Assembly: GCA_017461475.1 (NCBI GenBank)
Contig: JAFTXX010000014.1
Span: 58,255 to 122,254, forward strand
Direction: 5' to 3'
From: Clostridia bacterium
GTDB taxonomy: Bacteria; Bacillota; Clostridia; Oscillospirales; CAG-272
Length of the DNA stretch: 64,000 nt
Each line of letters starts with the position of its first letter. Position 1 is the first letter of the stretch. Of the stretch, positions 3,467 through 58,320 are shown in pieces. Position numbers and translations under genes: made by a program. The notes below the pieces were generated by a model. The model saw only the letters and a list, made by a program, of their open reading frames with translations, had not been told where the DNA came from and made no database searches.

Positions 3467-4447
3467 ATGAAAAATAATTTTGCGCTTGACCTTCAGCTTT
3501 TCGCTTTTACCGATGCGCCCGCATCGATGACTAAGACTGCAACCGGCGAGATGTCTTCCACTATGAAGACCTTTTACAACAAGAGTCTTCTTGAGAACGC
3601 CCGTGAGGAGTCGGTGTTTGACCAGTTTGCGATGCCCACTCCCATGACCCACGGCAAGACCGCCGAATGGCGCAGATGGAAGACCTTCGCTCCCGCTACC
3701 ACCCCACTTGAAGAGGGCGTAATTCCCAACGGTCACACCTTCGGAATGGAGGCTGTTACGGCGGGGCTTTCCCAGCACGGTGATTATACTCCTATATCGG
3801 ATGTTCTTGAGATGACCGCTTTTGATCCCGTTATTTATGGGGCGACTGAGGAGATGGGCGCGGCGGGCGCGGAGACCTCGGATATTCTTATCCGAAACGA
3901 TCTGCTGACAGGAACAAATCAGATCTATGCGGGCGCAAAGTCGAGCAAGAGCAGCCTTGCTGCCGCCGATACCATTACACCCGCGCTGATCAACAAGGCT
4001 GTGACCTTCCTCAAGAAGATGCGCGCGCCTAAGATCAATGGATACTATGTAGCGGTCATTCATCCCTCAGTTGCGGAGGATCTTCGTAACAGTGAGGAAT
4101 GGAAGGAATTTCACAAGTACAACGATACCTCTCCCATCTTCAAGGGAGAGATCGGTGAGCTTCACGGTGTGAAGTTTATCGAGTCTAATTTTGCCAAGGT
4201 CGACAGCGGCACGAATATCAAGGTATATTCCACTATGATCTTCGGCAAGGATGCCTTCGGTAAGCTTGGTATTACGGGCGGCGAAATGCAGATGATCATA
4301 CACGGTAAAAATGAGATCGGAGGTCCTCTCGATCAGTTCTCCACCGTTGGCTACAAGTTTATGCACGGCGCGAGAGTGCTGTATGAGGAAAGACTCATCA
4401 ACCTTTGGACTGCATCCTCCTATGGGGATGAGGATGATGTAAACTAA
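3467..4447 (+). CDS. Major capsid protein with N-terminal Prp-type site
   Basis: 326 aa. It follows the scaffold gene by 24 bases with a strong AAAGGAG site. The body, with TTPLEEGVIPNGHTFGMEAV (about residues 84-103) and the central VAVIHPSVAEDLRNSEEW stretch (about 195-212), is typical of N4gp56-like/HK97-fold major capsid proteins of Firmicutes phages. Residues 7-13, LDLQLFA, closely match the L27 Prp site, so the mature subunit would begin near Ala13. That pattern mirrors phage 80alpha, where Prp trims both capsid and scaffold, but here the protease is encoded two genes upstream. Confidence 0.88.
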   Translation: MKNNFALDLQLFAFTDAPASMTKTATGEMSSTMKTFYNKSLLENAREESVFDQFAMPTPMTHGKTAEWRRWKTFAPATTPLEEGVIPNGHTFGMEAVTAGLSQHGDYTPISDVLEMTAFDPVIYGATEEMGAAGAETSDILIRNDLLTGTNQIYAGAKSSKSSLAAADTITPALINKAVTFLKKMRAPKINGYYVAVIHPSVAEDLRNSEEWKEFHKYNDTSPIFKGEIGELHGVKFIESNFAKVDSGTNIKVYSTMIFGKDAFGKLGITGGEMQMIIHGKNEIGGPLDQFSTVGYKFMHGARVLYEERLINLWTASSYGDEDDVN

Positions 4448-23769: not shown

Positions 23770-23814
23770 TTCGTAATCAGCAGGTCGTGTGTTCGAGTCA
23801 CATCACCAGCTCCA
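23770..23814 (+). other. attP: attP core: 3' half of tRNA-Thr(CGT)
   Basis: The stretch reads as the end of a tRNA: anticodon loop TTCGTAA with anticodon CGT at 23772-23774, stem TCAGC, variable loop AGGTC, T-arm GTGTG-TTCGAGT-CACAT, acceptor CACCAGC, then TCCA. The bases before the loop (CGTGC) do not pair with TCAGC and the 5' tRNA half is missing, so this is not a working tRNA but a phage att core that restores the tRNA upon integration. Integrase gene is next door. Threonine identity follows from the CGT anticodon. Confidence 0.85.
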
Positions 23815-27388: not shown

Positions 27389-27422
27389 GAACTGTTCGAA
27401 ATTTTCGAACAGTTCATTTTTT
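27389..27422 (+). terminator. Second hairpin terminator between convergent genes
   Basis: GAACTGTTCGAA-att-TTCGAACAGTTC (27389-27415), perfect 12-bp stem, then a T-rich run. It backs up the preceding terminator and overlaps the stop of the leftward dinD gene. Confidence 0.8.
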
Positions 27423-28253
27423 ATCCGACAGCTTTTTCTTTTCCTGCTCACGTTCAAGTTGCTTTATGCTCTTTTCGGGTGTGGGAAGATCCTCGGGCAT
27501 AGTGCCGCCGAGCTCTTTTATTGTCTGACGGACCTTTACACCGACCTCATAATGTGTTCGGTTAGCTTCTGTCTTTCCTTGTACGTTGTCACGACGCAGT
27601 TTTTCCTCTGTCTGTGTAGCGCGGAAAAGATTGGCGGCAAGCTCTGTGCTTCCCATATGGTCGAGAATGTCCTGGCTTTTTTTGAGTCCTTTGCGCTGCT
27701 TTATATCTTGCGCTTTCAAGCCGCCGTAAAGTCCCATATACCCATAGTTTTGAAATACGGCGTAATCTAACGGCTCTATTACCCCTGCATTGTGCGCGGC
27801 TTCGGCTAAGGCGGCGTTGTGGCGTTTCATTTCTTTGCGGATAGCAATGCGTTTCTGATCCTCAGAAAGCTGTTCGTAATTATCGATCAATTCTTGCTGA
27901 CGGGTTTTTACGGCAAAATACGTTTGACCGACGGCAATGACTTCTTTGCGGGGATCACCATTCATAACAATCAGGTAACACGCATAGCGGGATAGCATAT
28001 AATCGGGAATACTTTTATGCGCGCCTTTAGGCATATCTATCGTTTTGCTGACGTCAGCAAAATGATCCTCGATGCTGAAGCCGCTATTTTTACAAGCTAA
28101 TTTTGCTCGCTCGATTGCCTCCGCAAAATTTCGCCATTGCGCATATTCAAGAACAGGCTGCAATTCTCGAGCCAGCCAATATTCCTGACCATTCTCGTTG
28201 ATATGTTTTATACTTTCAAACGTTTGCTCGTTGTAGACGGTAATGTTACTCAT
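27414..28253 (-). CDS. dinD: DNA-damage-inducible protein D (DinD) homolog
   Basis: 279 aa, leftward. Matches DinD along its whole length: an N-terminal BRO-like region (FESIKHINENGQEYWLAREL, about 12-31; AKLACKNSGF), the conserved SRYACYLIVMNGDPRKEVIA (about 88-107), then FQNYGYMGLYGGL, KKSQDILDHMGSTELAANLF and ELGGTMPEDLPTPEKS. E. coli DinD is SOS-induced and inhibits RecA filament activity. The gene follows the repressor gene on the same strand (36-base gap, AAGGAAG before the ATG), so it is probably transcribed with it. In this place it may modulate RecA-dependent repressor cleavage. No SOS box of its own is evident. Confidence 0.92.
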   Translation of the reverse strand: MSNITVYNEQTFESIKHINENGQEYWLARELQPVLEYAQWRNFAEAIERAKLACKNSGFSIEDHFADVSKTIDMPKGAHKSIPDYMLSRYACYLIVMNGDPRKEVIAVGQTYFAVKTRQQELIDNYEQLSEDQKRIAIRKEMKRHNAALAEAAHNAGVIEPLDYAVFQNYGYMGLYGGLKAQDIKQRKGLKKSQDILDHMGSTELAANLFRATQTEEKLRRDNVQGKTEANRTHYEVGVKVRQTIKELGGTMPEDLPTPEKSIKQLEREQEKKKLSDKK

Positions 28254-28289: not shown

Positions 28290-28955
28290 TTATTCTATTG
28301 GATATTGCCCTGAGACGACCTTCCCGAGGATGGCTATATGGTCGAGCTGTTCTCCTTCGTATCTCATAGGCTTGAACGTTGGGTTTTCGGGGACGAGGGT
28401 GATCACGTTGTTTTCCTTATCGTAATATACGCGCTTGACGGTTGTTTCGTCCTCTATTCGGATGACGGCTATTTCTCCGTCATCTACCATTGTCTGGCTT
28501 TTTACAAACAGTATGTCTCCGTCGAAGATCCTCGCGTTTATCATACTGTCCCCCTTGGCTCGTAAGCAGAAGTCCGCTTGGATGTCCTCGTCGGCGGATA
28601 TATATGCCTCATAATGTTCGTCAGCATACTTGGGGTCTCCGCAGGCTACCTCGCCCAGCAGGGGGAGCTTTTTTGTTTTTATGGGGAGCATATCTTTGGG
28701 AATATCGTCTGATGCAAAAAGTTGGAGATTGAGCGTGGTTTTTGGGGCGATTTCTTCTTTGCCTAAAAGATAACCAACAGATACTCCAAAATATGCCGCT
28801 ATTTTTTGAGCGGTAACGGCAGATACTCCTGAACGCCTACCTTTCTTTAAATCTGTCAGGAGACCTTTGCTGATTCCTATATCAGTGCACATTTTACCGC
28901 CTGTTATTCCTTTACTTTCGCAAAGCGCAACAATATTTTTGTATAAATTACTCAT
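28290..28955 (-). CDS. S24-type phage repressor with a Prp-like site in its hinge
   Basis: 221 aa from the ATG at 28955 (GGAGG 6-8 bases upstream; a longer frame starting 24 bases earlier has none). Helix-turn-helix at about 5-67 (TGGKMCTDIGISKGLLTDLK). The C-terminal domain is a LexA/CI-like S24 self-cleaving peptidase: cleavage-site region GEVACGDP (Cys-Gly), Ser in AKGDSMINAR, Lys in ETTVKRVYY. It should maintain lysogeny and be inactivated by RecA-stimulated self-cleavage. The linker between the domains carries LNLQLFAS at residues 75-82, differing at one position from the L27 Prp site LNLQFFAS, and close to the phage capsid and scaffold sites. A cut there would separate DNA-binding and dimerisation domains. 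Binding sites are likely the 14-bp repeats upstream, one of which overlaps the start codon. Confidence 0.92.
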   Translation of the reverse strand: MSNLYKNIVALCESKGITGGKMCTDIGISKGLLTDLKKGRRSGVSAVTAQKIAAYFGVSVGYLLGKEEIAPKTTLNLQLFASDDIPKDMLPIKTKKLPLLGEVACGDPKYADEHYEAYISADEDIQADFCLRAKGDSMINARIFDGDILFVKSQTMVDDGEIAVIRIEDETTVKRVYYDKENNVITLVPENPTFKPMRYEGEQLDHIAILGKVVSGQYPIE

Positions 28956-28962
28956 ACGAGTA
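28949..28962. promoter_or_regulatory. Operator O4 overlapping the repressor start codon
   Basis: TACTCATACGAGTA: TACTCA-TA-CGAGTA, one mismatch between half-sites. It covers the repressor ATG, so binding would limit its own expression. Confidence 0.7.
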
Positions 28963-29014
28963 CCTCCTCGATTGTTCAAAAGTACTAAACTTTTGTATTA
29001 TTGTATTTTGGGGC

Positions 29015-29043
29015 TTGACAAATACTCAAACAAGTACTATAAT
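29015..29043 (+). promoter_or_regulatory. Rightward early promoter with operator O1 in its spacer
   Basis: TTGACA (29015-29020), 17-base spacer, TATAAT (29038-29043): a perfect consensus promoter towards the Cro-like gene. The spacer contains TACTCAAACAAGTA (29023-29036), so repressor binding would block RNA polymerase directly. It faces the leftward promoter 48 bp away. Confidence 0.9.
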
Positions 29044-29055
29044 ATAGCCAAGAAG

Positions 29056-29069
29056 TACTCGAACGAGTA
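29056..29069. promoter_or_regulatory. Operator O2
   Basis: TACTCGAACGAGTA: perfect half-sites TACTCG and CGAGTA around a two-base centre, the best match of the four. It lies between the two promoters and near the rightward start point, so occupation could block both. Confidence 0.8.
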
Positions 29070-29090
29070 TAAATGTTTACTTGTACTATA

Positions 29091-29119
29091 ATTATAGTAC
29101 ATAAAAGAGTACTTGTCAA
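29091..29119 (-). promoter_or_regulatory. Leftward repressor promoter with operator O3 in its spacer
   Basis: Read leftward: TTGACA (29119-29114), 17-base spacer, TATAAT (29096-29091), also perfect consensus. The spacer holds a weaker operator, TACTCTTTTATGTA, at the same offset as O1 in the rightward promoter. The -10 box lies inside the 18-bp palindrome GTACTATAATTATAGTAC (29083-29100). Transcripts from this and the rightward promoter run into each other. Confidence 0.85.
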
Positions 29120-30882: not shown

Positions 30883-30981
30883 ATGAAAAAACAAGAACAC
30901 GCGCTTACGGGCGGGTGCAATCAAAAAAATTTACCAAGAAAAAACGGAGGAATGAGAAATGAACGAGTTGAAAATTTTTGA
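30883..30981 (+). CDS. Short ORF overlapping the antirepressor start
   Basis: 32 aa, ATG after AAAAGGAG, ending inside the next gene. It overlaps that gene by 23 bases and would carry its ribosome binding site (GGAGG). It may be a leader peptide that couples translation to the antirepressor, or just a chance frame. Composition is Lys/Asn/Gly-rich and not membrane-like. Confidence 0.35.
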   Translation: MKKQEHALTGGCNQKNLPRKNGGMRNERVENF

Positions 30982-31711
30982 GAACAGGGAGTTTGGAAAG
31001 ATGAGGACGATCACGGTTGACAATGAGCTGTGGTTTGTTGGAAAAGATGTGGCGGAAATACTTGGGTACAAAGATACATCTGATGCGATAAAGAAGCACG
31101 TCGAAAATGAGGACAAGCTGACTCGGCGATTTGCCGACTCAGGTCAAAACCGCGAAATGTATATAGTTAATGAAAGCGGTCTTTACAGCTTAATTCTTTC
31201 AAGTAAACTCCCGAAGGCAAAGGAGTTCAAGCATTGGGTGACATCGGAGGTCCTTCCCTCTATACGCAAGACAGGGGGGTACATAGCGGGGCAGGAGGCT
31301 ATGAGTGATGATGAGCTTATGGCGAAGGCTCTGCTTGTGGCTCAGCGTCAGATCGAGGAGCGCAACAAGCTCATTGAGACTATGCGTCCCAAGGCTCTTT
31401 TTGCCGATGCGGTGGCTACCAGCAAGACCTCTATTCTTGTGGGGGAGCTTGCCAAGATCCTCAAGCAGAACGGTGTGGATATGGGGCAGAGGCGGTTATT
31501 TGCCTGGCTCCGTGACAACGGCTTTCTGATGAAGCGCGGCTCGGACTACAATATGCCCACTCAGAGGGCTATGGAGATGAGGCTTTTTGAGATCAAGGAG
31601 ACCACGGTGAACAATCCCGACGGCTCGGTACGTGTCAACAAGACCACGAAGGTGACGGGGCGCGGGCAGAATTATTTTGTTAACAGATTTTTGGGCGTGT
31701 CTCAGGAATGA
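30959..31711 (+). CDS. Phage antirepressor (BRO-N and ANT domains)
   Basis: 250 aa. The N-terminal BRO domain, with WFVGKDVAEILGYKDTSDAI (about 22-41) and SGLYSLILSSKLPKAKEFKH (about 73-92), is followed by a C-terminal ANT domain, ELAKILKQNGVDMGQRRLF and GRGQNYFVNRFLG. Antirepressors inactivate the phage repressor or redirect transcription during induction. GGAGG is 7 bases upstream. Probably acts with the Cro-like protein in the switch to lysis; DinD carries a related BRO-like N-terminal part. Confidence 0.9.
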   Translation: MNELKIFENREFGKMRTITVDNELWFVGKDVAEILGYKDTSDAIKKHVENEDKLTRRFADSGQNREMYIVNESGLYSLILSSKLPKAKEFKHWVTSEVLPSIRKTGGYIAGQEAMSDDELMAKALLVAQRQIEERNKLIETMRPKALFADAVATSKTSILVGELAKILKQNGVDMGQRRLFAWLRDNGFLMKRGSDYNMPTQRAMEMRLFEIKETTVNNPDGSVRVNKTTKVTGRGQNYFVNRFLGVSQE

Positions 31712-40195: not shown

Positions 40196-42121
40196 ATGCC
40201 CATTCCTTTTTTTGAAAAGCTTGTTAAACACAAGCCGTACCCGCAAAAGCTTCGGGCGCTTTCCGCAAAGGGTGAAGCGGGAGCGGCGCCTGCCACTCTT
40301 CCCGTTGATGAAAAGCGGATCGCTGTATGGAACGCTGCGCTGCGGTCCTATAAAAGCAGACGGTCTGTTATTGAAGATAAGATACGCTCCAATGAGGCTT
40401 TTTGGCGAATGAGACAATGGAAGGTGAGAGACCCTGACGGAGGAATGCAGACACCGTCAACAGCCTGGCTGTTCACCTGTATTCAATCCAAGCTTGCGGA
40501 TGTGATGGATTCCTATCCTACGGCTAACTTCCGTCCACGTCAGAAGGATGATGTGGAGGAGGCAAAGCGGTTATCCTCTATCGTACCTGTTATTATGGCG
40601 CAGAATAACTTTGAGCAGACATACAGAGAGGTGTCCGAGTACACTCTGAAGAATGGTATCGGCATTTATCACGTTTTTTGGGATGGAAGGAAGCTTCACG
40701 GGCTCGGAGATATTGCCATAAAAAAGATGGATGTGCTCCGAGTTTTCTTTGAACCCGGTATTACGGACATTCAGGATTCCACATACCTGTTTGTAGTAGA
40801 GCTTGTGGACAAGAACACCTTGTATGGAAGATACCCACATGCGCGGAGCACAGTTAAAGGGAAGGTCATAGAGCCGAGCAGATTCATTACCGACGAGCAG
40901 GTGGACGTACAGGACAAGATCGTTGTTGTGGACGTATATTACAAGGTGGAGACCGGGGGCAAGAGGATACTTCACTACTGCAAATACGCGGATACGACAT
41001 GCCTTGAGTCTACGGAGAATGACCCCGAAAAATATCCGAACGGACTTTACGATCACGGACTGTATCCCTTTGTGGTGCAGAGCCTTTATCACATTGAACA
41101 AAGTCTTTACGGAACGGGAATGGTCGATCTCGGCGCGGATACACAATTGCAGATCGATCTGATGAACAGGGCTGTGGTGGAGAATACCTTGATGGGCGCA
41201 AAGCCTCGGTTTCTTACCACGCTTGACGCGGATGCCGCGGAGACTCAGCTTGCGGATCTGACGCGTACCTTTATTCAGGTGCCGTCGGTTTCAGAGCACA
41301 ACACAGTTCCGATGACTACAACGCCCCTTGGGGGTAATTATCTGGAGTTCATCCAGAGCAAGATCGACGAGCTGAAGCGTGTTACCTCAAACCACGACGT
41401 AAACAACGGCGCGGCGCCCAGCGGCATTACTGCTGCTTCCGCCATATCCGCCCTACAGGAGACCTCGGGAAAGGACAGCCGCTTTATCAACAAGAGCTTT
41501 TACAACGCCTACAGGCTTTTGATGACGCAGGTGGTAGAGCTTATAAGGCAGTTTTATGATGTGCCGCGGTGGTTCCGCATTATTCCCGACCAAGCCGCGG
41601 GCGCGTCGGAGGCTTTTGTTAAGTTTGATAACAGCGGTCTGAAGGGATCCCCCCAGGTAACGGCAGGCGGCGAACCAATTGGGTGGCGTGTTTCTGAATT
41701 TGATATTGAGATCACGGCGGAAAAAGCTAATCCCTACCGCAAGATGGAGCAGAACGAGCTTGCGTTGTCCTTCTTCAAATTAGGATTTTTCAATCCTCAG
41801 CTTACAGATCAGGCGCTTGCCTGTCTCAGTATGATGGACTTCGATCATAAGCAGGATGTTATTGAGAGGATCGAGCGGAACGGGACTCTTATCGAAATGC
41901 TTGCGATGTATCAGAAGCTTGCTATTGGTATGGCAAAGCGTTACGGAGATGCGGAGGCGCTTCGGGTAATTCAGCAGAATATGATGGCGTACGGTCAGGA
42001 AATCCCCGTGGGAGCGGATGTAGATCCTGCTGATGCCGCTGATCCCGAGGCAGGTACGAAGGAGGCAAAGCACGTGCAAAAGGCAAGAGAGAGAGCGAGA
42101 AGCTCCACAGAGGTGATATGA
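40196..42121 (+). CDS. Phage portal protein (second copy)
   Basis: Same 641-aa product as the gene at 10-1935. Here the native upstream context is visible: terL ends 7 bases before and supplies GGAGG for the start. Confidence 0.85.
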   Translation: MPIPFFEKLVKHKPYPQKLRALSAKGEAGAAPATLPVDEKRIAVWNAALRSYKSRRSVIEDKIRSNEAFWRMRQWKVRDPDGGMQTPSTAWLFTCIQSKLADVMDSYPTANFRPRQKDDVEEAKRLSSIVPVIMAQNNFEQTYREVSEYTLKNGIGIYHVFWDGRKLHGLGDIAIKKMDVLRVFFEPGITDIQDSTYLFVVELVDKNTLYGRYPHARSTVKGKVIEPSRFITDEQVDVQDKIVVVDVYYKVETGGKRILHYCKYADTTCLESTENDPEKYPNGLYDHGLYPFVVQSLYHIEQSLYGTGMVDLGADTQLQIDLMNRAVVENTLMGAKPRFLTTLDADAAETQLADLTRTFIQVPSVSEHNTVPMTTTPLGGNYLEFIQSKIDELKRVTSNHDVNNGAAPSGITAASAISALQETSGKDSRFINKSFYNAYRLLMTQVVELIRQFYDVPRWFRIIPDQAAGASEAFVKFDNSGLKGSPQVTAGGEPIGWRVSEFDIEITAEKANPYRKMEQNELALSFFKLGFFNPQLTDQALACLSMMDFDHKQDVIERIERNGTLIEMLAMYQKLAIGMAKRYGDAEALRVIQQNMMAYGQEIPVGADVDPADAADPEAGTKEAKHVQKARERARSSTEVI

Positions 42122-42444
42122 TAAATGTCGTATATGACGAAGCCTGCGGCATCACGATGACAGGGCACGCGGGACAAGCCCCGAGGGGGCAGGATATAGT
42201 CTGCGCGGGAGCCTCGGCAATAGTAATATCACTTGCCGAAATGCTTGAACGAAATAGTGAAGAGCTGATAGAGCGCGGTATACTGCTTGAAAGCGGCAGG
42301 GCAAGCATAAAGGTGGTGCCTCGCGGCGCCTTTAAAAATTGTTGTGAGGGCGCGTTTGAGATGGCTATGTGCGGGTTGGAGCTACTTTCGGAGCAATATC
42401 CCGATTACATATGTGTTTCCCGCGTTGCGGGGAATGGCGAATGA
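42118..42444 (+). CDS. prp: Prp-family cysteine protease (second copy)
   Basis: Identical to 1932-2258, including His17 and Cys29. Confidence 0.9.
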   Translation: MINVVYDEACGITMTGHAGQAPRGQDIVCAGASAIVISLAEMLERNSEELIERGILLESGRASIKVVPRGAFKNCCEGAFEMAMCGLELLSEQYPDYICVSRVAGNGE

Positions 42445-42653: not shown

Positions 42654-43628
42654 ATGAAACTGACTCGTAATTTCGATCTTTTGCAGATGTTTGCGGAGGG
42701 CGGTGGAGACGGTGGCGCATCCGCGGGCAGTGAAGGATCGGTATTGCCCGGAGCAGAGACGGGGGGAGATGATCCTTTTGTCAACGCACCGAAAAAGGCA
42801 AAAGAATTGTACGCTAAGATGCGCGCTGAGCGTGAGGGAGACGTCCCAGCTTCGGCAGAAGCGGCATCGGCGCAGGTGACCACCGCTAAAGAGGAAGCGC
42901 CCGGGGCGACCGCGGCGAAGAAGCCTACCTTCAAGGAGCTCATTGCAAGTGAGGACTACAAGGCTGACTACGAGCGGCATATTCAAAAAGCGCTCAAGGA
43001 CCGCACAAAGCGACACGATACCGAAATGGGAGAGGTCAATGAGATACTTTCTCTCGTCGGACAAAAATATGGGCTTGACATTGAGTCGGAGGGCTTCAGA
43101 GCCGAGCTTACCAAGGCTTTACAGAACGATGACAGCGTATACGAAAAATACGCTGAGGAGCACGATATGCCGCTGGAGGAAGCAAGGACAGTTGTGCAAT
43201 TGAAGCAACAGCTTGAACGCGCCAACAAGGCGGCAGAGCAGAGGCGGGAGATGGAAGCTGAGAACAGAATCATAGCCGCGCTGAGAAAGAGCGCGGAGGA
43301 GACGGTGGCGAAATACCCTGATTTTGATCTTGAAGCCGCTATGCAGGACGAGCGTTTCCGTCAGCTCACAAGAGCCTGGAACGGAAATACGACCCTTGCA
43401 TATGAATCGCTCAATCACACCGTTCTTGTCGAGGAGGCAGAAAGACGCGCGGCGGCTGAAGCCACACAGGCGGTAGCCAACAGCGTAAGAGCAAATCTGT
43501 CAAGACCCGCTGAGGGCGGAATTTCCTCATCAAACAATACAGCGTCCGCCGCGCCCGATTTTGAGGCTATGGACCTCGGTCAGCTTCGCGCGTGGGCGGC
43601 AAAACAAAATCACAGGATGAGGAGATAA
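42654..43628 (+). CDS. Capsid scaffolding protein (second copy)
   Basis: Same 324-aa product as 2468-3442, with the FDLLQMFA Prp-type site. Confidence 0.8.
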   Translation: MKLTRNFDLLQMFAEGGGDGGASAGSEGSVLPGAETGGDDPFVNAPKKAKELYAKMRAEREGDVPASAEAASAQVTTAKEEAPGATAAKKPTFKELIASEDYKADYERHIQKALKDRTKRHDTEMGEVNEILSLVGQKYGLDIESEGFRAELTKALQNDDSVYEKYAEEHDMPLEEARTVVQLKQQLERANKAAEQRREMEAENRIIAALRKSAEETVAKYPDFDLEAAMQDERFRQLTRAWNGNTTLAYESLNHTVLVEEAERRAAAEATQAVANSVRANLSRPAEGGISSSNNTASAAPDFEAMDLGQLRAWAAKQNHRMRR

Positions 43629-43652: not shown

Positions 43653-44633
43653 ATGAAAAATAATTTTGCGCTTGACCTTCAGCTTTTCGCTTTTACCGAT
43701 GCGCCCGCATCGATGACTAAGACTGCAACCGGCGAGATGTCTTCCACTATGAAGACCTTTTACAACAAGAGTCTTCTTGAGAACGCCCGTGAGGAGTCGG
43801 TGTTTGACCAGTTTGCGATGCCCACTCCCATGACCCACGGCAAGACCGCCGAATGGCGCAGATGGAAGACCTTCGCTCCCGCTACCACCCCACTTGAAGA
43901 GGGCGTAATTCCCAACGGTCACACCTTCGGAATGGAGGCTGTTACGGCGGGGCTTTCCCAGCACGGTGATTATACTCCTATATCGGATGTTCTTGAGATG
44001 ACCGCTTTTGATCCCGTTATTTATGGGGCGACTGAGGAGATGGGCGCGGCGGGCGCGGAGACCTCGGATATTCTTATCCGAAACGATCTGCTGACAGGAA
44101 CAAATCAGATCTATGCGGGCGCAAAGTCGAGCAAGAGCAGCCTTGCTGCCGCCGATACCATTACACCCGCGCTGATCAACAAGGCTGTGACCTTCCTCAA
44201 GAAGATGCGCGCGCCTAAGATCAATGGATACTATGTAGCGGTCATTCATCCCTCAGTTGCGGAGGATCTTCGTAACAGTGAGGAATGGAAGGAATTTCAC
44301 AAGTACAACGATACCTCTCCCATCTTCAAGGGAGAGATCGGTGAGCTTCACGGTGTGAAGTTTATCGAGTCTAATTTTGCCAAGGTCGACAGCGGCACGA
44401 ATATCAAGGTATATTCCACTATGATCTTCGGCAAGGATGCCTTCGGTAAGCTTGGTATTACGGGCGGCGAAATGCAGATGATCATACACGGTAAAAATGA
44501 GATCGGAGGTCCTCTCGATCAGTTCTCCACCGTTGGCTACAAGTTTATGCACGGCGCGAGAGTGCTGTATGAGGAAAGACTCATCAACCTTTGGACTGCA
44601 TCCTCCTATGGGGATGAGGATGATGTAAACTAA
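43653..44633 (+). CDS. Major capsid protein (second copy)
   Basis: Same 326-aa product as 3467-4447, with the LDLQLFA Prp-type site. Confidence 0.88.
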   Translation: MKNNFALDLQLFAFTDAPASMTKTATGEMSSTMKTFYNKSLLENAREESVFDQFAMPTPMTHGKTAEWRRWKTFAPATTPLEEGVIPNGHTFGMEAVTAGLSQHGDYTPISDVLEMTAFDPVIYGATEEMGAAGAETSDILIRNDLLTGTNQIYAGAKSSKSSLAAADTITPALINKAVTFLKKMRAPKINGYYVAVIHPSVAEDLRNSEEWKEFHKYNDTSPIFKGEIGELHGVKFIESNFAKVDSGTNIKVYSTMIFGKDAFGKLGITGGEMQMIIHGKNEIGGPLDQFSTVGYKFMHGARVLYEERLINLWTASSYGDEDDVN

Positions 44634-48666: not shown

Positions 48667-51600
48667 ATGGCGCAAAGAATGAGTGTAGACGAGGCGTGGA
48701 AGCGCACGCAAAAAAGATATCTTTCCACACAGGCAATGGCGGCAAGCCACAATATGTCTGATTTCGAAAAAAAATACAGCTCTGACTATCTGTCGAGCTG
48801 GCGTAGATCGGGAGAGCTTTCGGATTATTATGCCGCTATCGAGAAGCAGTTGAGCTCCGCGAGGACGCTGAGGGACTATTACGAGCTTTACGGGAACGAC
48901 GAGCAGAAGGGGTATATTTCTGCCCTTGATGAGGCGATAGGCGGCTACAGCGGCGTTCTGAATGAGCGCAGTAAGGTGGAGGAGCTTTACGGCGCGTATT
49001 CATCGGAGGGGGCGTGGAAGTCTGCCGTTGCTAAAAGTGAGGCGGATATAGCCGAAAATAACCGGTTGCAGGGCTTGAACATCGAGGAGCTTTCGGCGCA
49101 GTCTGCTGATCTTGGAGAGCAGATACGAACGCTTAATCAGAAGAAAATACGGACTATAAGAGAAGAGGGGCTCACTCAGGATGAGCGCACGGAGTATGAT
49201 AACCAAATAAAAAAATTACAGAGTCAGAAAAAGAATATTGACTCCGATATAGAAAAGGCGAATAAATTGACAAGGCTTGGGGAGCTTGAAGCGGTAGAGA
49301 ATAACGAGGATTTTGAGCTCGCCTCTGCCTTTGATGATAGCGTGCAGAGCAGTACATATCGCATTATAAACGGTCTTTCTCTTTACGACGCGAACGTAAG
49401 AGAGGGCAAGCGCATCGAGGAGGACGGATGGCACTATGATGTGGGTCAGAGCTCCGAGGATGCCATCTTTGCGGAGCATATGACATCCGAGGAAAAGAAG
49501 CGGTATAACGCTCTGTATTATGACGACCCCGCAAAAGCCAAGGAATATCTTGACGCTTTAGACCCCATCATAGCGTCGCGTGCGGCTGCCTCGGCGTATC
49601 AATACGGTCGGGAGCATCCCGTTCTCGGTACATTAGCTTCTGTGTACTCAAACGCCACGGGAGCAGTGACGCAGTTCGGCTCGATGGTGAAGTTTGAGGA
49701 TGTCGGATATAATCAATCCGCTAATTTGTCCACCTCTCTGCGCTCGGGGGTATCGTCAGAGATGAGTCCGCTTGGCAGCTTCCTGTATAACACAGGTGTG
49801 TCGGCGGCAGAATCCTTACTTGCGTCAATGGTACCCTATGCGGGCGAGGCTATGCTTGCGCTGTCCTCGGCGGCGTCGACGCAGAATGATATCCTCAGCA
49901 GAGGCGGAACGGGCGCTCAGGCGATGATAGGCGGTCTTGCCGCGGGCGTGGCGGAGGCTTTCTTTGAGCACGTCTCTCTGAGCTCTCTCCGCTCAATGCA
50001 GCCTACCGAGATAGTGTCAAGCTTTAAGAGCTTTATGGGTAACGTAGGTAAGGAGATGCTGACAAACGCCGGCGAGGAGGCGGCAACCGAGTTTGCAAAC
50101 ATAATGACAGATACGTTTATTATGGGCGAGCTTTCAAGCTTCAATACACTTGCGGATAAATATGCGGCAAAGGGTATGAGTGAGACCGAGGCCATGTGGA
50201 ATGCCGCTCTTGCGCTTGCCGGACAGATAGGCGAGGCGGCGGCATCAGGCGCTGTGATGGGTCTTGGCTTTTCGTCGGTTGGAGGAGGTGTCGGTCTTTC
50301 GCAAAACTATGCGGCGGGTCAAAGCATCATAAATGGCAAGAACGATTTTTTCGTGGATGATGTTTTAAACGATTCGCAGATCCTTTTCAATGATGAAGCC
50401 GTGAAAGCCGCAAAGGACGAGGATGCTGCCTTGATAAAGCAGGCAAAAAAGCTTTCTCAGAAGGTTGCTGAGAAAAAGGACAGCAGATCTCCCGCCCAGG
50501 CGATCCGAGTTGGCGCGTTGGCAAAAGAGGTTATGAAAGAGGAAGTCAAGCTCGTGATGAAGGAGTTGAACGAGACGGCAACGCGGAATGTAGCAAAGGC
50601 GGCACAGACCGCCGAGGCGGAGGGGAACATGGCAACCGCATCGGGGCAGGGCGCGGAGATAAGGCGGAGTAGCGGTCTCCCGATAGTCAGGGCTGAGGGG
50701 CAGGAGCTTTCGGAGATATTTGTGGAGAGGGACGGGGAGGTTGTTTCTCTTGAGGACGTTTCCGTGGAGGACGTCGATCTGGCTGTTGCGTACTCTCTCG
50801 CGGTCACTACAGGCTCTGTGGAGGCGGCGAACGCCTTTATAGACGCTTATGCCTCCGAGGAGGAGAAGGCTTCTCCCGTGGCGTTCTGGAGCGCGTGGAT
50901 GGGTATTATGACCGACGGGCAAACTCTTCGCACTACAGAGGAGAATATGCAGAGGGCCTTTGCCGAGTATGGAGACCAGCTCAGCCAAGAGGCAAAGCTT
51001 GCGGCGTGGCTTGCGGGGGTGGAGCTGAAGCAGGCGGAGCGCAAGCGTAAGCTTGAAGCGGCAAACTCTGCGAGAATGGCGAGGGAAACATCTGAAAGCT
51101 CTGCTTCTGAGGTATTTATGTATCGAAAAAACGGCAGCTTCACCGAGGATAAATATTTCAGAACTCAAATGGCAAAGTGGGAGCGGCTGAAACACGGCGG
51201 ATATATTAAGGTCGGCGAGCTTTCAGCAGAGAGCCCGTTGTGTCAGGTCGGTATGCCTGTCGGAACGCTTCGGTATGATGTTGATAAGCTCAAAAAGAAT
51301 ATGACCGATCACGCTGATTATCTTGATGTAGAGCTTCTCAAGCAGATCCCTGATATTATAGCAGATCCCGTAGCTATTAGCGAATATCGGGAAGGCAACA
51401 CAATAAGCGTTTTCGGTGACATTTTTGTGGGAGACTCTCCGATGATGGTCGGAGTTACAGTTTCCAAGGATAGAGCGGGAAATACTATCAGCAAGGTCAG
51501 AACATACAATACCCGTCGTGACGTAGGCAAGCTGATAACGGATGATACTGTGCTGTATCTTGATAAAAACAAAAAGAGAACCCGAAAATGGTTCCAAGCC

Positions 51601-54600
51601 TGTGGGATACAAGTCCCTTTAGGGGGAAACACTTTCGGATTCATCCGTAGTATATCACAATTTAATGACGGTGTCAATACCTTCGGTGAAAAAGGTAAAA
51701 AAGAAACCTCACAGCTCATTGATGCCAAAAGCACCAATGCAACGGTCAATGCCGATTCTGTGGTGGTTCCTACTGATAGTATCCCCCACCTTTCCGAAAA
51801 TGTCAAGGGTTATTTTGACGATTCGGCTTTGAAAAACGTCAGGCTTGACGCGAAGCAAAAGGAATTTGTGGCTTTTGCGCGGTTGTTTTCCGATGTGTTC
51901 GGGGTAAACGTTACCTTTGTTGCCTCGGAGAAGGGAAAGCGTAAGGAGAACGGCTCTTACGACCGTAATACCAATACGATCACACTTGATATATTTTCGG
52001 GTATTGATAATAACGCGAACTACAATGCGGTACAGTCCGCTTTATCAAATACGCTCTCTCACGAGGTCGTACATAATATGAGTGCTGTTTCCCCCGAATA
52101 TTATGACGCGCTGAGTGAGTATGTATTTGAAGCTCTCAAGTCTCAGGGAATGGACATAGAAGAGAGAATACAGTACTACATAGAGAATGCGAGAGCCGAG
52201 AACAAGAAGCTGTCAAGAGAGGATGCCATAGAGGAGATCGTGGCTCACGCTTGCGACGGTATGCTGAGAACCTCTGAGACCGTAAGAGAGTTTATGGAAG
52301 GCTTCTACGACAAGGACAGTAAGGCGGCGAATAAGTTCAGCAAGTTTGTTAAGGACGTACTGAAGCGGCTGAAGAGTGTCTTTGATACGCTTCTCGGAAC
52401 AAAGGCATACTCACAGGAGGCTCGCGCCATCTATAAGGCGGGAGCGGATGCGGTGGCAGAGATACAGAAGCTTTACGACGAAGGCGTTCTTGCTATGCGC
52501 GAGGGGAATGTGGCGAGAAATTATGAAATTGAGAGCAAGAGTGATAAGAGTGAAGAGACTGTAAAAATGTATCAATCTCGCGAAACTTTGGAACAAGCCG
52601 CCGATGAAATGGAGAAGATCAGTGCTGAGAAATACTTGCAAGACAAATCAAAATACCCTTTTATTCAGGTTATGGATCACACTCCACAGAAGGTTATTGA
52701 TTCTATGGAGGGAGGAAAAAACCGTCGTATTTTGATTCGTCGTGATGCTTTATATCTTGCAATCAGAGAGAACGGTGTGCAAGAGGGGCATTACCATGGA
52801 CTGGGAGCCGAGGTGATAAAAAAACTGCCTGAATACTTGGGATCTCCAGACGTTATTCTTTCAACTATTGATAAGGATACAGGCAAGGAAAGTAAGAATC
52901 GGCGTATCATTTTAACAGGTATTGACGGAGCAAACGGTCAGGGAATCGTATCTGTGGAATTTGAGTCAATGAAGGATTTTGAGGGGCATAATGATTATTT
53001 TAATATCATTATTACCGTCTTTGATCTGCACAAGAATTACCTTGAACGACTTTTCAAAAAACAAGGCGCGATTATTAAGGAACAAAAAGAGAGCCTTGCG
53101 CAAGTGAATCCTCAACTGTATGAGTGGTTGAGAACTATTAACGCAAAACTCTCTGGTAATAGTATACCCGATTCTGCTCAAAAAGTCAAGACCTACGGTG
53201 AAAAAAAGGATACAAAAAAAGAAGAATCGGCGCAAGTTAATTCCCAAGTCCAATACGAGGGCATTATTAACGCTAACTCTTCTAACGATAGTATATCACA
53301 AAACGATATTTCTGTCAAGGAGAACCGCAAAAATAATTCTGACTCTTCCGTGATGAAGCAAGAGAGAATAACGGTTGATATGAGTGAAACGGAACGGGCC
53401 GAAATATTGAGAAAGGCAAAGATAAGTCCGCCTGCTATTGAAATATCTGAAAATTTCGACGTGGATTTTAAAGAACTTGAAAAGAGCAATTGGAAAGTAG
53501 TAAAAAAACCTATGCTCGAAAAATTGCGTGAGCTTGGTTTCTTAAAATCGTATCGGAGCGACAAGATAGATGTAGAATTTCATTTTACAGGCGAGGGCTT
53601 GCGTAAGAGTACAAATTCACAAATCTTTGAGTACGGCGGCAGCTTGGCAGATCTTTCCAAGGTCGTTATGAATATGCAGTCAATACTTGATAGTGCAGTT
53701 TTACTTGAAATACACTCGGATAAAGCAAAGGGGACACCAAAGGAAAATTCCCGACTTTTGCGAACCTACGTATTGTTAAGCGCATTCAGAGAAGGCGAAA
53801 CGATTACTCCCGTACAGTTTGAGGTAAAGCAGTACGTAGATAATGACAATCGCCTGTACCTTGCCGTGGCATTAACAAAAATAGAGACAGATGTCATCAG
53901 CGATACGGCTCCGCAAAAAGCGGAACGGACACGCCTGGTATCTGTCTCTGATATAAGTATACCACAATTGATAGAAAAAATCAACCCCTATGATAAAAAT
54001 TTCTTCAAGTACATTCCCGACGAATTCTTAAACAAGGCACAGCTCGAAGCAAAGCGAGAGGCGCTTTCGATTGAGGCAAAAAAATATGGAAAAAAATCTG
54101 ACAAATTAAGCCAGGAGCGCATTTCCACGCCTGAGCCGTATTCGGGGAAAAATTTATATACGGACGGAGACATATACAGTTATGATTTTATGACGGCTTT
54201 GGCTCCGATGGTGGTAAAGACAATGCCTTCGTTAAGCTCTGTAAAAAAAGACGGTAAGGTTTCACAAGCTAAAGCTATTGAAGTCGGACTTAAAAACGCT
54301 GAAGGATTGGGTAGAAGGGTCTCCGAAAATCAATATGCGGTGAAGAACGTTTATACGGGCAGAGAGATCGTTCTCGGTAAAAGCGGATTGGGGCATAGCC
54401 TTGACGCTTCAAGCGTTCATAGACTGCGTACAAATGCAAGGCTTGCCGCTATTGGCGGAGACATAGTACAAAATGCGGTGCCGATAAACGGATTAAAGAA
54501 GAAAAATTCTCAGGCAAACGGAACGTATGCTATGGCTTGTCTTGTAAATGACGGAAACGGTTATGTTGTTGCTATAGTTACTGTCGATGAGTTTTCCTCT

Positions 54601-57600
54601 AAAGCAATTGGTATTGACTTTGTAGATATTGCGCATTCCTTAAACGGAAGATTTTTGGCAAAAAAAGAAGATAGCCGGTCTTCCGCAAGGGAATTGGAGT
54701 CAGGACAAAAATCCGTCTCCACCACAGCTATCTCTGATATAAGTATATCAGATTTTCTCGAAATTGTCAATAGCACACACAAAAGTATTTTATCTGATGA
54801 CGTGTTGAAGCATTTGAAAGAAGTAAGACCGAGCGAAGGATATTATTCTGATCAAGTTTTGTTCCAAGAGCGCATTTCTACGCCTGAGCCCTCGGAGCTT
54901 CTCGGGGAGCTTTTCCGTTCGAAGGAAGCTTACAAGAGCTATGGCAAGTACACCGAGAGTCTGAAGAAGTATCAGGATCTTGCCGTTCGTGTGAGAAATC
55001 AAGAGAAGCGTATCTCCGAGATAGACGCTGAGATAGGCAGTCTGAGGAGCGAAAAGAAGCAGAGCGGCAAGGGCGCGCGAATGGACGAGCTCTACCGTAT
55101 GCGGAGAACAGCCGAGGGGAAGATCGACGAATACAAAAAGCGTATGTTCGCTATGGAAGCTCGGGAGCTTAGCGCGGTCGTTGCGGCTGAGACTGACAGG
55201 GTGAGAAAAGAGGTTCAGCTTGCTGAGCGTGAGAAATACGCGAAAAAGAGTAAGGAGAGGACGGAAGGTCTCATACGTAAGGAGACGCGCGCCAAGCTCA
55301 GGCGAGTGGTCAAGGAGCTTAACCGTCGTCTGAACCACGGAACAAAGGAAAAGAACGTAAAGGTCGGTATGCAGGACGTTGTAGGAAGCGCCCTTAAGGC
55401 GGCTGAGCTTTTGTTTGCCGATGATATAACCAACGCTGATATTATTGAATACGGCTTTGATCATCTGAGCGACAACGAAAAAAAGCTTGTAGATGAATAC
55501 AAGCAGTTGTTGAAGTCCCGTGCGGTGCTTGAGGAGGAGTTGAGTCCTCAAAAGGTGGTTGTAGAAATTGAAGAAAATTCTGAAAAATATGGTGATGTGC
55601 AGAAGGATTTGTGGATAAATGTGGGAAGCGCTAAAAATGCTGATACAAATCACATTTACGCAATTACAAACAAAAAAGAAGAATTGCCCACCCATTACGG
55701 CGTGGGTAGCCCCACAGAAGCGGGTAACTACCTCCAAAACAATCCTTCTAATGTCATTATACCCCATTCTTCCGAAAAAGTCAATACTTCTTCCGAAAAA
55801 AATGCGATACAGAAGAAGATAAACGGTATTGACTATCGCCTGAGGAAGCTTGACGAGGCGCTGAGGGACCGTTTGGAGGGTATGCGAAGCTTCTATAATT
55901 CGGCTGTCATTGACGATGCGCTGGACGAGCTTGCGGCGGCGTATTCCGAGCTGAAAAACTCCAAGGACGACTACATAAGGGGAGCCTACGACGAGCTTGT
56001 GGCTGAACGGCTTGAAGGCGCTAAGGCGGCTCTGAGAGGCGTTACGGTACGCCATATGAGTACTGAGCAACTTCGGGAGCTGTACTCTCTTTACAAGATG
56101 GTTCTGACGACTGTACGCACGTCTGACAAGCTGTTTACCGAGGGCAAAAACGCAAGTGTAGCTGACGAGGCTGCCACTATTGAAAACGAGCTCTTGTCCG
56201 ATGGCGAGCCGAAGGAAAAAAAGCTGAAGCTCTTGCAATATCCTGAGAGCTTTGCTTGGAATATGCTCATACCCGCGTATGCGTTTGACATTATTCGATC
56301 ACATACGCTGCGTGCGCTTTACAAAAGGCTTGTATCTGCTGAGGGCGTATGGGGCAAGGATGTGGAAGAGGCGCAAAAATTCAAGGTGGATATGGATAAA
56401 AAGTATGGAGCAAATAAGTGGGATACCGACGAGCAGTTCGTTTTTCACACTCCGAGCGGAAAGGAGGGCTCCGTAAGCTTAAATCAGATAATGTCGATAT
56501 ATGCCTATACGCTTCGGGGAAAGCAGGCGACGGATCACCTTGACAGGAGCGGATTTTGTCATTCCAAGTCGATAATCGTTAAGGAATCGAAATGGGTAGG
56601 CTTGAGGATAAAGCGCAGCTACACATGGAATCACTCGGCGGTCTGGCGGCTTTCTCCCGAAATAAGGGAGCAGCTGATATCAAAGCTTTCGGCAGAACAG
56701 AAGGCGTATGTCGAGGAGATGCAGAAATATCTTTCCAAGGATTGCGCTAAAAAGGGAAATGAGGTTTCTCGCAAATTGTACGGTATCGAGATATTCGGGG
56801 AGGAATTTTATTTTCCGATGCATTCGGCGGAGCAATATATATCTGAAAAGGAAAAAAGCAATCCGGGGGCGGTACCTCGCTTGAAAAATTCGGGATTTAC
56901 GAAAAAAATAAGTCCAAATTCGACAAGTCCCTTGGTTCTTGATGGATTTACCGACGTATGGGCAAAGCACTGCGCCGACATGGCTGCTTATCACGCCTTT
57001 ACTTTGCCTCTTGAGGATATGGCGAGGGTATTTAATCACAGACGGCGAGGGACGGACGGTGCTGTGGAGGGCTCTGTTCAGGCAACGCTCAGCGGGATCT
57101 ACGGAGACGCGGCATCAGCATACGTAAAGCGGCTTATAGATGAGCTGAACGGCGGTGTGAGAGTGGAGACTACTGCGGGATTTATGAACAAATTTATGTC
57201 TCTGCACAAGATGGGCGCTACGGCTATGTCTCTGTCAACACTTGTGCAACAGCCCACGTCGATCTTTCGGGCTATGGCATATATAAATCCTAGGTATTTT
57301 ATGACTTATGCTCAAATGACTCCGAGCAAGCACAGGGCGGAGTGGGAAGAGATAAAAAAATATGCTCCTGTGGCAATACTTAAGGAAATGGGCGGATACG
57401 ATACGGGCGCAGGCGCGGCTACTGCCGATTATATCAGATCCAAAAGCTATGAGGGCTTTAAGGAAAAAGCGGCTGCTCTGATAAAGGACAGCGCCTACCG
57501 AAATAATGTGATGTATGCTTTGCCGTCTCTTGCTGATGAGCTGGCGTGGTGTCATATCTGGGCGGCGGTGAAAAAGGAAATAGCCGATACTACAGAACTT

Positions 57601-58320
57601 ACGGAGGGGAGCAATGCGTTTCTTGAAGCCTGTGGAGAGCGCTTTACGGATGTAGTTACCCATACTCAGGTATACGATTCTGTTCTTGCAAGAAGTCCTC
57701 TTATGCGATCTAAAGACCCGACCACTAAGATGCTCACAGCCTTCTCGGCGGAGCCTACTGTAGTTACAAATATGGTAGCCTACGGAATTATTGAGGGTAA
57801 GCGGGGAAATCACGCCTTTGCCGCACGCATCATAGGCAGTTCTGTTGCCACTATGATAGCTAATGCAGCTGTCGTATCGCTGGCTTATGCTGCAAGAGAT
57901 GACGATGAGGACGAGACATTTACCGAAAAGTATATTGAGGCTCTTACAACCGAGCTTATTGAGGGCTTTAATCCTTTGACCTACATTCCGTTTATCAGGG
58001 ACATATGGTCTGTTATGCTCGGATACGACGTGGAGCGTACCGATCTTTCTGTCATAGCCGATCTGTGGCGTTCCTTTGAGGGGATGTTCAGCAAGCGGAA
58101 GAGTATGTTTGATAAATTCACCGATCTTATCGGAGATATTGCTAAGCTTTTTGGCTTGCCCGTTGGCAATCTTATGCGTGAGGCAATGGCTATCTACAAT
58201 ATGGTCAAGCTGTTGATTGGATCTTTCGAAGGAGAGACGACTGACGGAGAGGGTATTGGTAATGCGCTATTGAAGGCGGCGGAAAACGCTGTGCCATTGA
58301 TCGATAAGCTAAACTCTTAA
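48667..58320 (+). CDS. Giant polyvalent ejection protein (second copy)
   Basis: Same 3,217-aa product as 8481-18134, including HEVVH and both QERISTPEP linkers. That such a long reading frame is intact in both laps argues for one genome read twice rather than an old duplication. Confidence 0.75.
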   Translation: MAQRMSVDEAWKRTQKRYLSTQAMAASHNMSDFEKKYSSDYLSSWRRSGELSDYYAAIEKQLSSARTLRDYYELYGNDEQKGYISALDEAIGGYSGVLNERSKVEELYGAYSSEGAWKSAVAKSEADIAENNRLQGLNIEELSAQSADLGEQIRTLNQKKIRTIREEGLTQDERTEYDNQIKKLQSQKKNIDSDIEKANKLTRLGELEAVENNEDFELASAFDDSVQSSTYRIINGLSLYDANVREGKRIEEDGWHYDVGQSSEDAIFAEHMTSEEKKRYNALYYDDPAKAKEYLDALDPIIASRAAASAYQYGREHPVLGTLASVYSNATGAVTQFGSMVKFEDVGYNQSANLSTSLRSGVSSEMSPLGSFLYNTGVSAAESLLASMVPYAGEAMLALSSAASTQNDILSRGGTGAQAMIGGLAAGVAEAFFEHVSLSSLRSMQPTEIVSSFKSFMGNVGKEMLTNAGEEAATEFANIMTDTFIMGELSSFNTLADKYAAKGMSETEAMWNAALALAGQIGEAAASGAVMGLGFSSVGGGVGLSQNYAAGQSIINGKNDFFVDDVLNDSQILFNDEAVKAAKDEDAALIKQAKKLSQKVAEKKDSRSPAQAIRVGALAKEVMKEEVKLVMKELNETATRNVAKAAQTAEAEGNMATASGQGAEIRRSSGLPIVRAEGQELSEIFVERDGEVVSLEDVSVEDVDLAVAYSLAVTTGSVEAANAFIDAYASEEEKASPVAFWSAWMGIMTDGQTLRTTEENMQRAFAEYGDQLSQEAKLAAWLAGVELKQAERKRKLEAANSARMARETSESSASEVFMYRKNGSFTEDKYFRTQMAKWERLKHGGYIKVGELSAESPLCQVGMPVGTLRYDVDKLKKNMTDHADYLDVELLKQIPDIIADPVAISEYREGNTISVFGDIFVGDSPMMVGVTVSKDRAGNTISKVRTYNTRRDVGKLITDDTVLYLDKNKKRTRKWFQACGIQVPLGGNTFGFIRSISQFNDGVNTFGEKGKKETSQLIDAKSTNATVNADSVVVPTDSIPHLSENVKGYFDDSALKNVRLDAKQKEFVAFARLFSDVFGVNVTFVASEKGKRKENGSYDRNTNTITLDIFSGIDNNANYNAVQSALSNTLSHEVVHNMSAVSPEYYDALSEYVFEALKSQGMDIEERIQYYIENARAENKKLSREDAIEEIVAHACDGMLRTSETVREFMEGFYDKDSKAANKFSKFVKDVLKRLKSVFDTLLGTKAYSQEARAIYKAGADAVAEIQKLYDEGVLAMREGNVARNYEIESKSDKSEETVKMYQSRETLEQAADEMEKISAEKYLQDKSKYPFIQVMDHTPQKVIDSMEGGKNRRILIRRDALYLAIRENGVQEGHYHGLGAEVIKKLPEYLGSPDVILSTIDKDTGKESKNRRIILTGIDGANGQGIVSVEFESMKDFEGHNDYFNIIITVFDLHKNYLERLFKKQGAIIKEQKESLAQVNPQLYEWLRTINAKLSGNSIPDSAQKVKTYGEKKDTKKEESAQVNSQVQYEGIINANSSNDSISQNDISVKENRKNNSDSSVMKQERITVDMSETERAEILRKAKISPPAIEISENFDVDFKELEKSNWKVVKKPMLEKLRELGFLKSYRSDKIDVEFHFTGEGLRKSTNSQIFEYGGSLADLSKVVMNMQSILDSAVLLEIHSDKAKGTPKENSRLLRTYVLLSAFREGETITPVQFEVKQYVDNDNRLYLAVALTKIETDVISDTAPQKAERTRLVSVSDISIPQLIEKINPYDKNFFKYIPDEFLNKAQLEAKREALSIEAKKYGKKSDKLSQERISTPEPYSGKNLYTDGDIYSYDFMTALAPMVVKTMPSLSSVKKDGKVSQAKAIEVGLKNAEGLGRRVSENQYAVKNVYTGREIVLGKSGLGHSLDASSVHRLRTNARLAAIGGDIVQNAVPINGLKKKNSQANGTYAMACLVNDGNGYVVAIVTVDEFSSKAIGIDFVDIAHSLNGRFLAKKEDSRSSARELESGQKSVSTTAISDISISDFLEIVNSTHKSILSDDVLKHLKEVRPSEGYYSDQVLFQERISTPEPSELLGELFRSKEAYKSYGKYTESLKKYQDLAVRVRNQEKRISEIDAEIGSLRSEKKQSGKGARMDELYRMRRTAEGKIDEYKKRMFAMEARELSAVVAAETDRVRKEVQLAEREKYAKKSKERTEGLIRKETRAKLRRVVKELNRRLNHGTKEKNVKVGMQDVVGSALKAAELLFADDITNADIIEYGFDHLSDNEKKLVDEYKQLLKSRAVLEEELSPQKVVVEIEENSEKYGDVQKDLWINVGSAKNADTNHIYAITNKKEELPTHYGVGSPTEAGNYLQNNPSNVIIPHSSEKVNTSSEKNAIQKKINGIDYRLRKLDEALRDRLEGMRSFYNSAVIDDALDELAAAYSELKNSKDDYIRGAYDELVAERLEGAKAALRGVTVRHMSTEQLRELYSLYKMVLTTVRTSDKLFTEGKNASVADEAATIENELLSDGEPKEKKLKLLQYPESFAWNMLIPAYAFDIIRSHTLRALYKRLVSAEGVWGKDVEEAQKFKVDMDKKYGANKWDTDEQFVFHTPSGKEGSVSLNQIMSIYAYTLRGKQATDHLDRSGFCHSKSIIVKESKWVGLRIKRSYTWNHSAVWRLSPEIREQLISKLSAEQKAYVEEMQKYLSKDCAKKGNEVSRKLYGIEIFGEEFYFPMHSAEQYISEKEKSNPGAVPRLKNSGFTKKISPNSTSPLVLDGFTDVWAKHCADMAAYHAFTLPLEDMARVFNHRRRGTDGAVEGSVQATLSGIYGDAASAYVKRLIDELNGGVRVETTAGFMNKFMSLHKMGATAMSLSTLVQQPTSIFRAMAYINPRYFMTYAQMTPSKHRAEWEEIKKYAPVAILKEMGGYDTGAGAATADYIRSKSYEGFKEKAAALIKDSAYRNNVMYALPSLADELAWCHIWAAVKKEIADTTELTEGSNAFLEACGERFTDVVTHTQVYDSVLARSPLMRSKDPTTKMLTAFSAEPTVVTNMVAYGIIEGKRGNHAFAARIIGSSVATMIANAAVVSLAYAARDDDEDETFTEKYIEALTTELIEGFNPLTYIPFIRDIWSVMLGYDVERTDLSVIADLWRSFEGMFSKRKSMFDKFTDLIGDIAKLFGLPVGNLMREAMAIYNMVKLLIGSFEGETTDGEGIGNALLKAAENAVPLIDKLNS

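Follow-up and report, generated by a model that had tools for sequence, protein, structure and literature searches.

The repressor and the prophage that carries it

On its minus strand, the window (the whole stretch of 64,000 nucleotides that was analysed) carries the gene of a CI/LexA-type phage repressor, the two domains of which are joined by a linker that spells a Prp-type cleavage motif. The features at the locus, and the attachment core that separates the two prophage copies of the window, are the following.

28293..28955, minus strand (stop codon at 28290-28292): CI/LexA-type phage repressor of 221 amino acids, by its open reading frame, Pfam matches and LexA chains of the PDB
28764..28928, minus strand: helix-turn-helix (HTH) DNA-binding domain, residues 10-64, by its match to PF13443
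28710..28733, minus strand: Prp-type motif LNLQLFAS, residues 75-82 of 221, in the interdomain linker, read in frame from the translation
28713..28718, minus strand: predicted Prp scissile bond Phe80-Ala81, placed by the cuts in L27 and in the 80alpha capsid and scaffold
28638..28643, minus strand: predicted self-cleavage bond Cys105-Gly106, from the alignment of the repressor VACG with the LexA VAAG
28314..28664, minus strand: Peptidase_S24 self-cleavage and dimerisation domain, residues 98-214, with Ser137 and Lys174, by PF00717 and the LexA alignment
28944-28963, 29018-29037, 29051-29070 and 29093-29112, no strand: four similar palindromic operator-like sites around GTACTCNNNNGAGTAC (repeat family D1/D2)
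23770..23814, no strand: 45-bp attachment core between the prophage copies, identical to the 3' end of the host tRNA-Thr

Both repressor domains score above their Pfam cut-offs, namely Peptidase_S24 (1.9e-29; PF00717 at 102.2 bits against 23.3; residues 98-214) and HTH_26 (6.6e-6; 26.7 bits against 22; residues 10-64), and PDB LexA chains match the protein with E-values down to 1.9e-19, the nearest solved chains by sequence being LexA and UmuD. The S24 part looks complete, with Cys105 in its VACG loop, Ser137 and Lys174, and most of the S24 relatives that were printed carry IACG or VACG as their cleavage loop. An S24 domain fused to an HTH domain, the catalytic Ser137/Lys174 pair and a Cys-Gly loop place the protein among the S24 repressors of the LexA/CI type, and it shares with LexA and lambda CI this domain pair, the Ser/Lys pair, the VACG loop and operator-like sites between divergent genes; what sets it apart from them is the additional Prp consensus site of its linker, which is absent in 57 relatives. 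The first operator-like site (28944-28963) overlaps the repressor start, and the sites, whose consensus was drawn by eye and whose function as operators is presumed, lie in the region that separates the repressor from the rightward early genes. Given the intact S24 residues and the operator-like palindromes at a divergent control region, the protein is taken to be an ordinary lysogeny repressor, the main switch of which, judging from the intact S24 domain, would be RecA-stimulated self-cleavage at Cys105-Gly106. The phage also has other routes to lift repression, since it encodes a BRO-N/KilAC antirepressor to the right of the repressor (30959-31711, plus strand); a second BRO-N protein is encoded directly downstream of the repressor (27414-28253, minus strand).

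The source contig (C44) opens with 41,837 bases of host DNA, continues with a 40,186-base phage in two exact copies (period 40,186) and closes with the 45 bases of the attachment core, and window positions 1-23814 and 40187-64000 belong to this same phage in exact tandem. A tRNA-Thr gene, which begins in the pre-phage part of the contig, occupies contig positions 41807-41882, and the phage is integrated there, since the 45-base core equals the 3' end of that gene. The two copies may reflect a lysogen with tandem prophages, or integrated and circular forms may have been assembled together; the host genome as a whole comprises 86 contigs and is 76% complete. The late region further holds an open reading frame (ORF) of 3,217 residues (48667-58320, plus strand), in which a metalloprotease-like HEVVH motif was spotted by eye, and which may encode a large multi-domain (polyvalent) phage protein.

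The linker motif, the Prp enzymes and the head-protein sites

In the parts of PMC9405229 drawn on here, the L27 consensus is given as MLxx(D/N)LQ(F/L)F'A(S/H)KK, each species' sequence being specific to its own Prp, such that the C. difficile enzyme leaves the S. aureus peptide uncut; the same parts name His22 and Cys34 as the active-site pair of S. aureus Prp and propose FlhB as a further substrate. The excerpts of PMC5744158 used here describe a Prp cut between F and A that shortens the capsid and scaffold of phage 80alpha by 13 and 14 N-terminal residues, respectively, and point out that the major tail protein of phi13 carries the motif as well. How does the repressor compare with these substrates? 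It was originally predicted to carry LNLQLFAS between its DNA-binding and self-cleaving domains, and it does so in frame at residues 75-82, the span first assigned (28707-28732) being off by 1-3 bases. With HTH_26 ending at residue 64 and Peptidase_S24 beginning at residue 98 in the Pfam matches, the motif sits between the two domains and a cut after the Phe would indeed part the two halves of the protein. Residues 76-82 (NLQLFAS) agree with every position of the L27 core (D/N)LQ(F/L)F'A(S/H); the flanks of the consensus are absent, there being no ML ahead of the core and DD instead of KK behind it. P2 of the repressor site is Leu, as in the capsid site of this phage, and P2 of the host L27 site is Phe.

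The Prp gene of the phage and the two head genes that follow it are these.

42118..42444, plus strand (identical copy at 1932-2258): phage-encoded Prp with His17 and Cys29, by PF04327 (61.4 bits, cut-off 27)
42654..43628, plus strand (copy at 2468): putative scaffold with the N-terminal site LLQMFAEG, assigned by position and N-terminal motif only
43653..44633, plus strand (copy at 3467): major capsid protein with the N-terminal site LDLQLFAF, by PF13252 and PF25209

The claims of the original prediction on this region hold up: the phage encodes its own Prp in the head region, above the PF04327 cut-off, and the capsid and putative scaffold sites read as it had them. The His and Cys of the phage Prp are 12 residues apart, the spacing found in other Prps, and its similarity to solved structures is weak (best E 6.2e-4, with chains named Prp at 1.1e-3 and 0.026). 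The scaffold ORF has no Pfam match, and several of its BLAST relatives in related phages have [ND]LQLFA, others lacking it. A host Prp, also part of the original prediction, exists as well, as a PF04327 gene adjoining that of L27 in the host genome; the host L27 is long, starts with MLKLSLQFFAHKK and has the site LSLQFFA. The repressor thus shares with the known Prp substrates (L27, the 80alpha capsid and scaffold, and the proposed FlhB) the core of the site, and PF04327 genes are present in both phage and host, the cognate status of either enzyme being presumed. In contrast, the sites described in the two papers lie near the N termini of structural or export proteins, and that of the repressor is a predicted one in the internal linker of a transcription factor (residues 75-82 of 221), followed by DD rather than KK; nor is it conserved (see below). 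Core and enzyme are present, but N-terminal position and conservation are lacking and cleavage is predicted only, so the repressor is not filed here among Prp substrates, yet it may work like one.

The sites of related phages were surveyed in ORFs no shorter than 91 residues from a sample of 32 stretches (458 kb), of which 15 are RecT relatives, 16 are capsid relatives and one is an S24 relative. LQ[LF]FA occurs there 21 times, and 20 of these matches fall in capsid or scaffold ORFs (one head ORF, in L179, was labelled by position only), 18 of the 20 lying no more than 40 residues from the upstream stop; the one remaining match lies in a doubtful 101-residue ORF. Exactly LNLQLFA accounts for six of the 21, in head proteins, and it is a head-protein site in relatives with a Prp hit (L179, L196 and L201). 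Departures such as FNIQLFA, INLTLFG, LNLQLLA and FDIQAFA are found among L197, L200, L201, L203, L205 and L206-L208, and because the head sites of relatives vary in this way, the preference of the phage Prp itself is uncertain. The repressor hinge carries a head-type site of this phage clan, even though the sites of the clan are not uniform. As separate observations, many relatives that encode a Prp have LQLFA, and P2 may track which Prp is used; the scaffold site of one relative (L204, in G154:C23), in the stretch of which no Prp hit was seen, reads LSLQFFA and is nearer to the host L27 with its Phe at P2.

Recurrence of the motif and the join between the repressor halves

What is the chance that such a motif arises by composition? 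In a model built from phage ORFs of at least 200 residues on both strands (12,457 residues), the expected number of L.LQ[LF]FA matches is 1.2e-3 in 12,500 residues and 3e-6 in a 30-residue linker, and that of the stricter [DN]LQ[LF]FA[SH] is 1.3e-4 and 3e-7, respectively, numbers to be read with the caveat that the pattern was chosen after sight and that any of many patterns could have caught attention. The hexapeptides of the motif also occur in ORFs that, judged by eye, appear unrelated, in at least 3 of 30 loci of the family genomes (L411, L415 and L426). Hydrophobic heptapeptides are common in the linkers of the S24 repressor family, which vary freely in both length and sequence, and linker hydrophobicity as a sign of function was rejected, the window ranking 8th of 33 hand-cut linkers.

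Among related S24 repressors, LQ[LF]FA is present in none of the 57 for which the hinge region was printed. The 57 come from 58 loci, of which L180 failed the loop pattern, yet its sequence has no motif either; they include some near-duplicates (L032-L034; L443 and L446), as well as a row (L016) that showed the wrong stretch, the actual hinge there again being without the motif. At the nucleotide level, RAYYTNCARYTNTTYGCN was found near none of 146 other S24 places in 196 family genomes, among the matches listed (29 of the places shared with the 57); of the 148 S24 places listed, only the window's two copies have one of the 148 listed places of RAYYTNCARYTNTTYGCN within 600 bases. The S24 set was counted without two HTH-only rows, and the RAYYTNCARYTNTTYGCN pattern demands Asp or Asn at P5, so that a site of the LSLQFFA type, as in the host, would be missed. 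One genome (G058, locus L405) has the identical 17-mer AATCTCCAACTTTTTGC; this candidate was rejected, its translation being that of something other than a repressor.

Viral contigs of IMG/VR were scanned from both sides of the hinge. The pattern Y(L/F)(L/F)G - gap - (L/F)Q(L/F)FA, run as four codon variants (17, 10, 32 and 33 loci) and addressing only HTH domains with a YLLG-like end and 4-13 residues between, gave 92 loci, none with an S24 signature; patterns on the side of the S24 loop, run as two of four codon variants (those other than CAAT and CAGT), gave at least 177 loci (57 and at least 120), again with no S24 signature. The six scans together cover at least 269 loci, and two of the patterns were confirmed to find the window. 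Likewise, the search for relatives with the same hinge came up empty in four viral-contig loci, in seven genome-contig loci (all HTH without S24), in six genomes of the genus (the window's own places included), in the loci read from the 196 family genomes or in 23 new loci read from 394 genomes of the order (E 1e-20), the last among the matches listed. As to co-occurrence of the motif with a phage prp gene, which the original prediction had proposed as a test, two relatives have an S24 repressor and a Prp hit in one stretch (L196 and L197), and in both the repressor lacks the motif. The same holds for a genome (G112) in which Prp hit and S24 repressor lie on different contigs (L199 and L210), and for the S24 repressors of L180, L191 and L204, in the stretches of which no Prp hit was seen.

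The two halves of the repressor have separate affinities. Up to about residue 70 the repressor shares 60-79% identity with small HTH proteins that lack S24, the nearest records to this DNA-binding half coming from Eubacteriales, Oscillospiraceae and Candidatus Faecousia; from about residue 87 onwards it shares up to 73% identity with S24 domains standing behind quite different HTH domains. By these sequence comparisons the repressor was put together from shuffled domains that meet at the hinge, a point that the original prediction had missed. None of the relatives found has the join in which the motif sits, so conservation speaks neither for nor against a function, and the refuting condition named in the original prediction (motif lost in close relatives that keep the flanking hinge residues) applies to none of them. 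Because no other repressor examined has the motif, it would represent either a second off-switch peculiar to this phage or a coincidence.

Possible readings of the linker motif

The reading that we place first, tentatively and with more doubt than conviction, holds that the linker is also a working Prp substrate, cut at Phe80-Ala81, which would give a RecA-independent removal of the repressor late in the cycle. A LexA/CI-type repressor would keep the temperate phage silent and would be inactivated mainly by self-cleavage at Cys105-Gly106; once the late genes are on, the phage Prp would cut Phe80-Ala81 and part residues 1-80 from residues 81-221, so that leftover or newly made repressor would be cleared without RecA and lysis would become one-way. 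The action of the phage Prp is presumed to be late because its gene sits in the head region; the host Prp may contribute a slow basal turnover of the repressor and could act earlier. The reading supposes that Prp reaches and cuts the internal linker with an effect on the switch. The parts of this reading deserve different degrees of trust, however: that purified phage Prp would cut the linker at all we rather expect, and that late phage expression, or the growth state via the host Prp, destroys the repressor in this way independently of RecA we consider somewhat unlikely. For cleavage by Prp speak the strict match (3e-7 per linker), the head-type site, the presence of both Prps and the interdomain position; against it speak the lack of recurrence, the internal linker as opposed to N-terminal sites, DD as opposed to KK, the species-specificity of Prps, the uneven head sites of relatives and the free variation of linkers in this family. 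Moreover, the phage Prp would act at a time when induction has already removed the repressor, and an early action of the host Prp would have to overcome the mismatch between Phe at P2 of the host L27 site and Leu at P2 of the repressor. Of the original prediction as a whole, the motif and its linker position, the Prps of phage and host and the expected separation of domains stand; control of the repressor by Prp has found no support so far, the motif being present in no other repressor examined. A literature search, for which subscription papers were mostly out of reach, brought up no account of a Prp-cleaved repressor among the papers listed.

Ranked close behind the Prp-substrate reading, and a serious possibility in its own right, is chance: the unconstrained linker of one among many S24 repressors would happen to spell a Prp site, which may even be cuttable, with no role attached. 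It agrees with the appearance of the motif in this phage alone across all searches made, with linkers conserved neither in length nor in sequence, with [ND]LQ[LF]FA in unrelated-looking ORFs (by eye, at least 3 of 30 loci) and with the freedom that the original prediction had to notice any pattern; harder to reconcile with it are the expectation for the strict consensus (about 3e-7 in one linker, 1.3e-4 in the proteome of the phage) and the fact that the motif falls in a phage with a Prp and a similar capsid site. Could the motif instead be a scar of the shuffle, i.e. could a non-homologous join of HTH and S24 have taken up the start of a head gene, with its Prp propeptide, so that cleavability is a by-product? 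The different relatives of the two halves, the position of the motif in the unshared join and the occurrence of LNLQLFA near the start of scaffold or capsid ORFs in related phages would all fit, but the likeness to head genes is confined to the motif, with no longer common stretch seen, and a 28-residue hinge query found no match in 50,697 phage records (E 10), a search of little weight in which capsid starts were not returned either. We regard this origin as improbable.

Marginally less probable still is that the linker is the target of another protease of the phage, the likeness to a Prp site being incidental. On this point the original prediction was incomplete: the Prp genes that it named as protease options are present, but it overlooked a peptidase that the phage encodes.

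26301..26819, plus strand: M78 (IrrE/ImmA-type) peptidase with the motif HELAH, a possible rival protease, by PF06114 (7.1e-20)

The gene lies 1.5 kb from the repressor, on the opposite strand and with two other ORFs between. To our knowledge, S24 repressors do not need an M78-type protease. The match of the gene to PF06114 and its HELAH motif favour this alternative, as does a known precedent, since, in the parts of PMC8960796 consulted, ImmA of ICEBs1 is a metallopeptidase that inactivates ImmR by a cut after Phe in the linker, at F95-M96 (see also PMC10233336, likewise used in part). The repressor described here is like ImmR in being putatively cut after a Phe in its linker by a separate protease, with an M78 gene in the phage; it is unlike ImmR in being an S24 protein and in that the M78 gene is not adjacent to it. 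The arrangement of ImmR and ImmA side by side is not found, and no HTH ORF lies directly upstream of the M78 gene, the latter a point in favour of this reading. On the other side, the residues around the Phe follow the Prp consensus, and a scan of the related stretches, many of which end before that region, turned up no M78 relative. As an observation on the gene itself, it stands alone, with no adjacent ImmR-like partner, and the next gene is membrane-protein-like by eye.

The least probable explanation, and a very doubtful one, is that the motif serves docking or packing, as a short strand or as a peptide (NLQLF) that binds the sliding clamp, for which the consensus is QLxLF. Hydrophobic residues alternate in the motif and the nearest solved chains are LexA and UmuD; against this, the motif is absent from relatives and its first position under the clamp consensus is N, not Q.

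If the Prp-substrate reading is false, the repressor would provide a clean case of a convincing motif that conservation neither backs nor excludes. If it is true, virion maturation, or ribosome assembly via the host Prp, would be tied to the decision between lysis and lysogeny, and a regulatory protein would join the Prp substrates. Hinge shuffling in S24 repressors would then be able to install protease inputs, which would amount to a general way of rewiring prophage induction.
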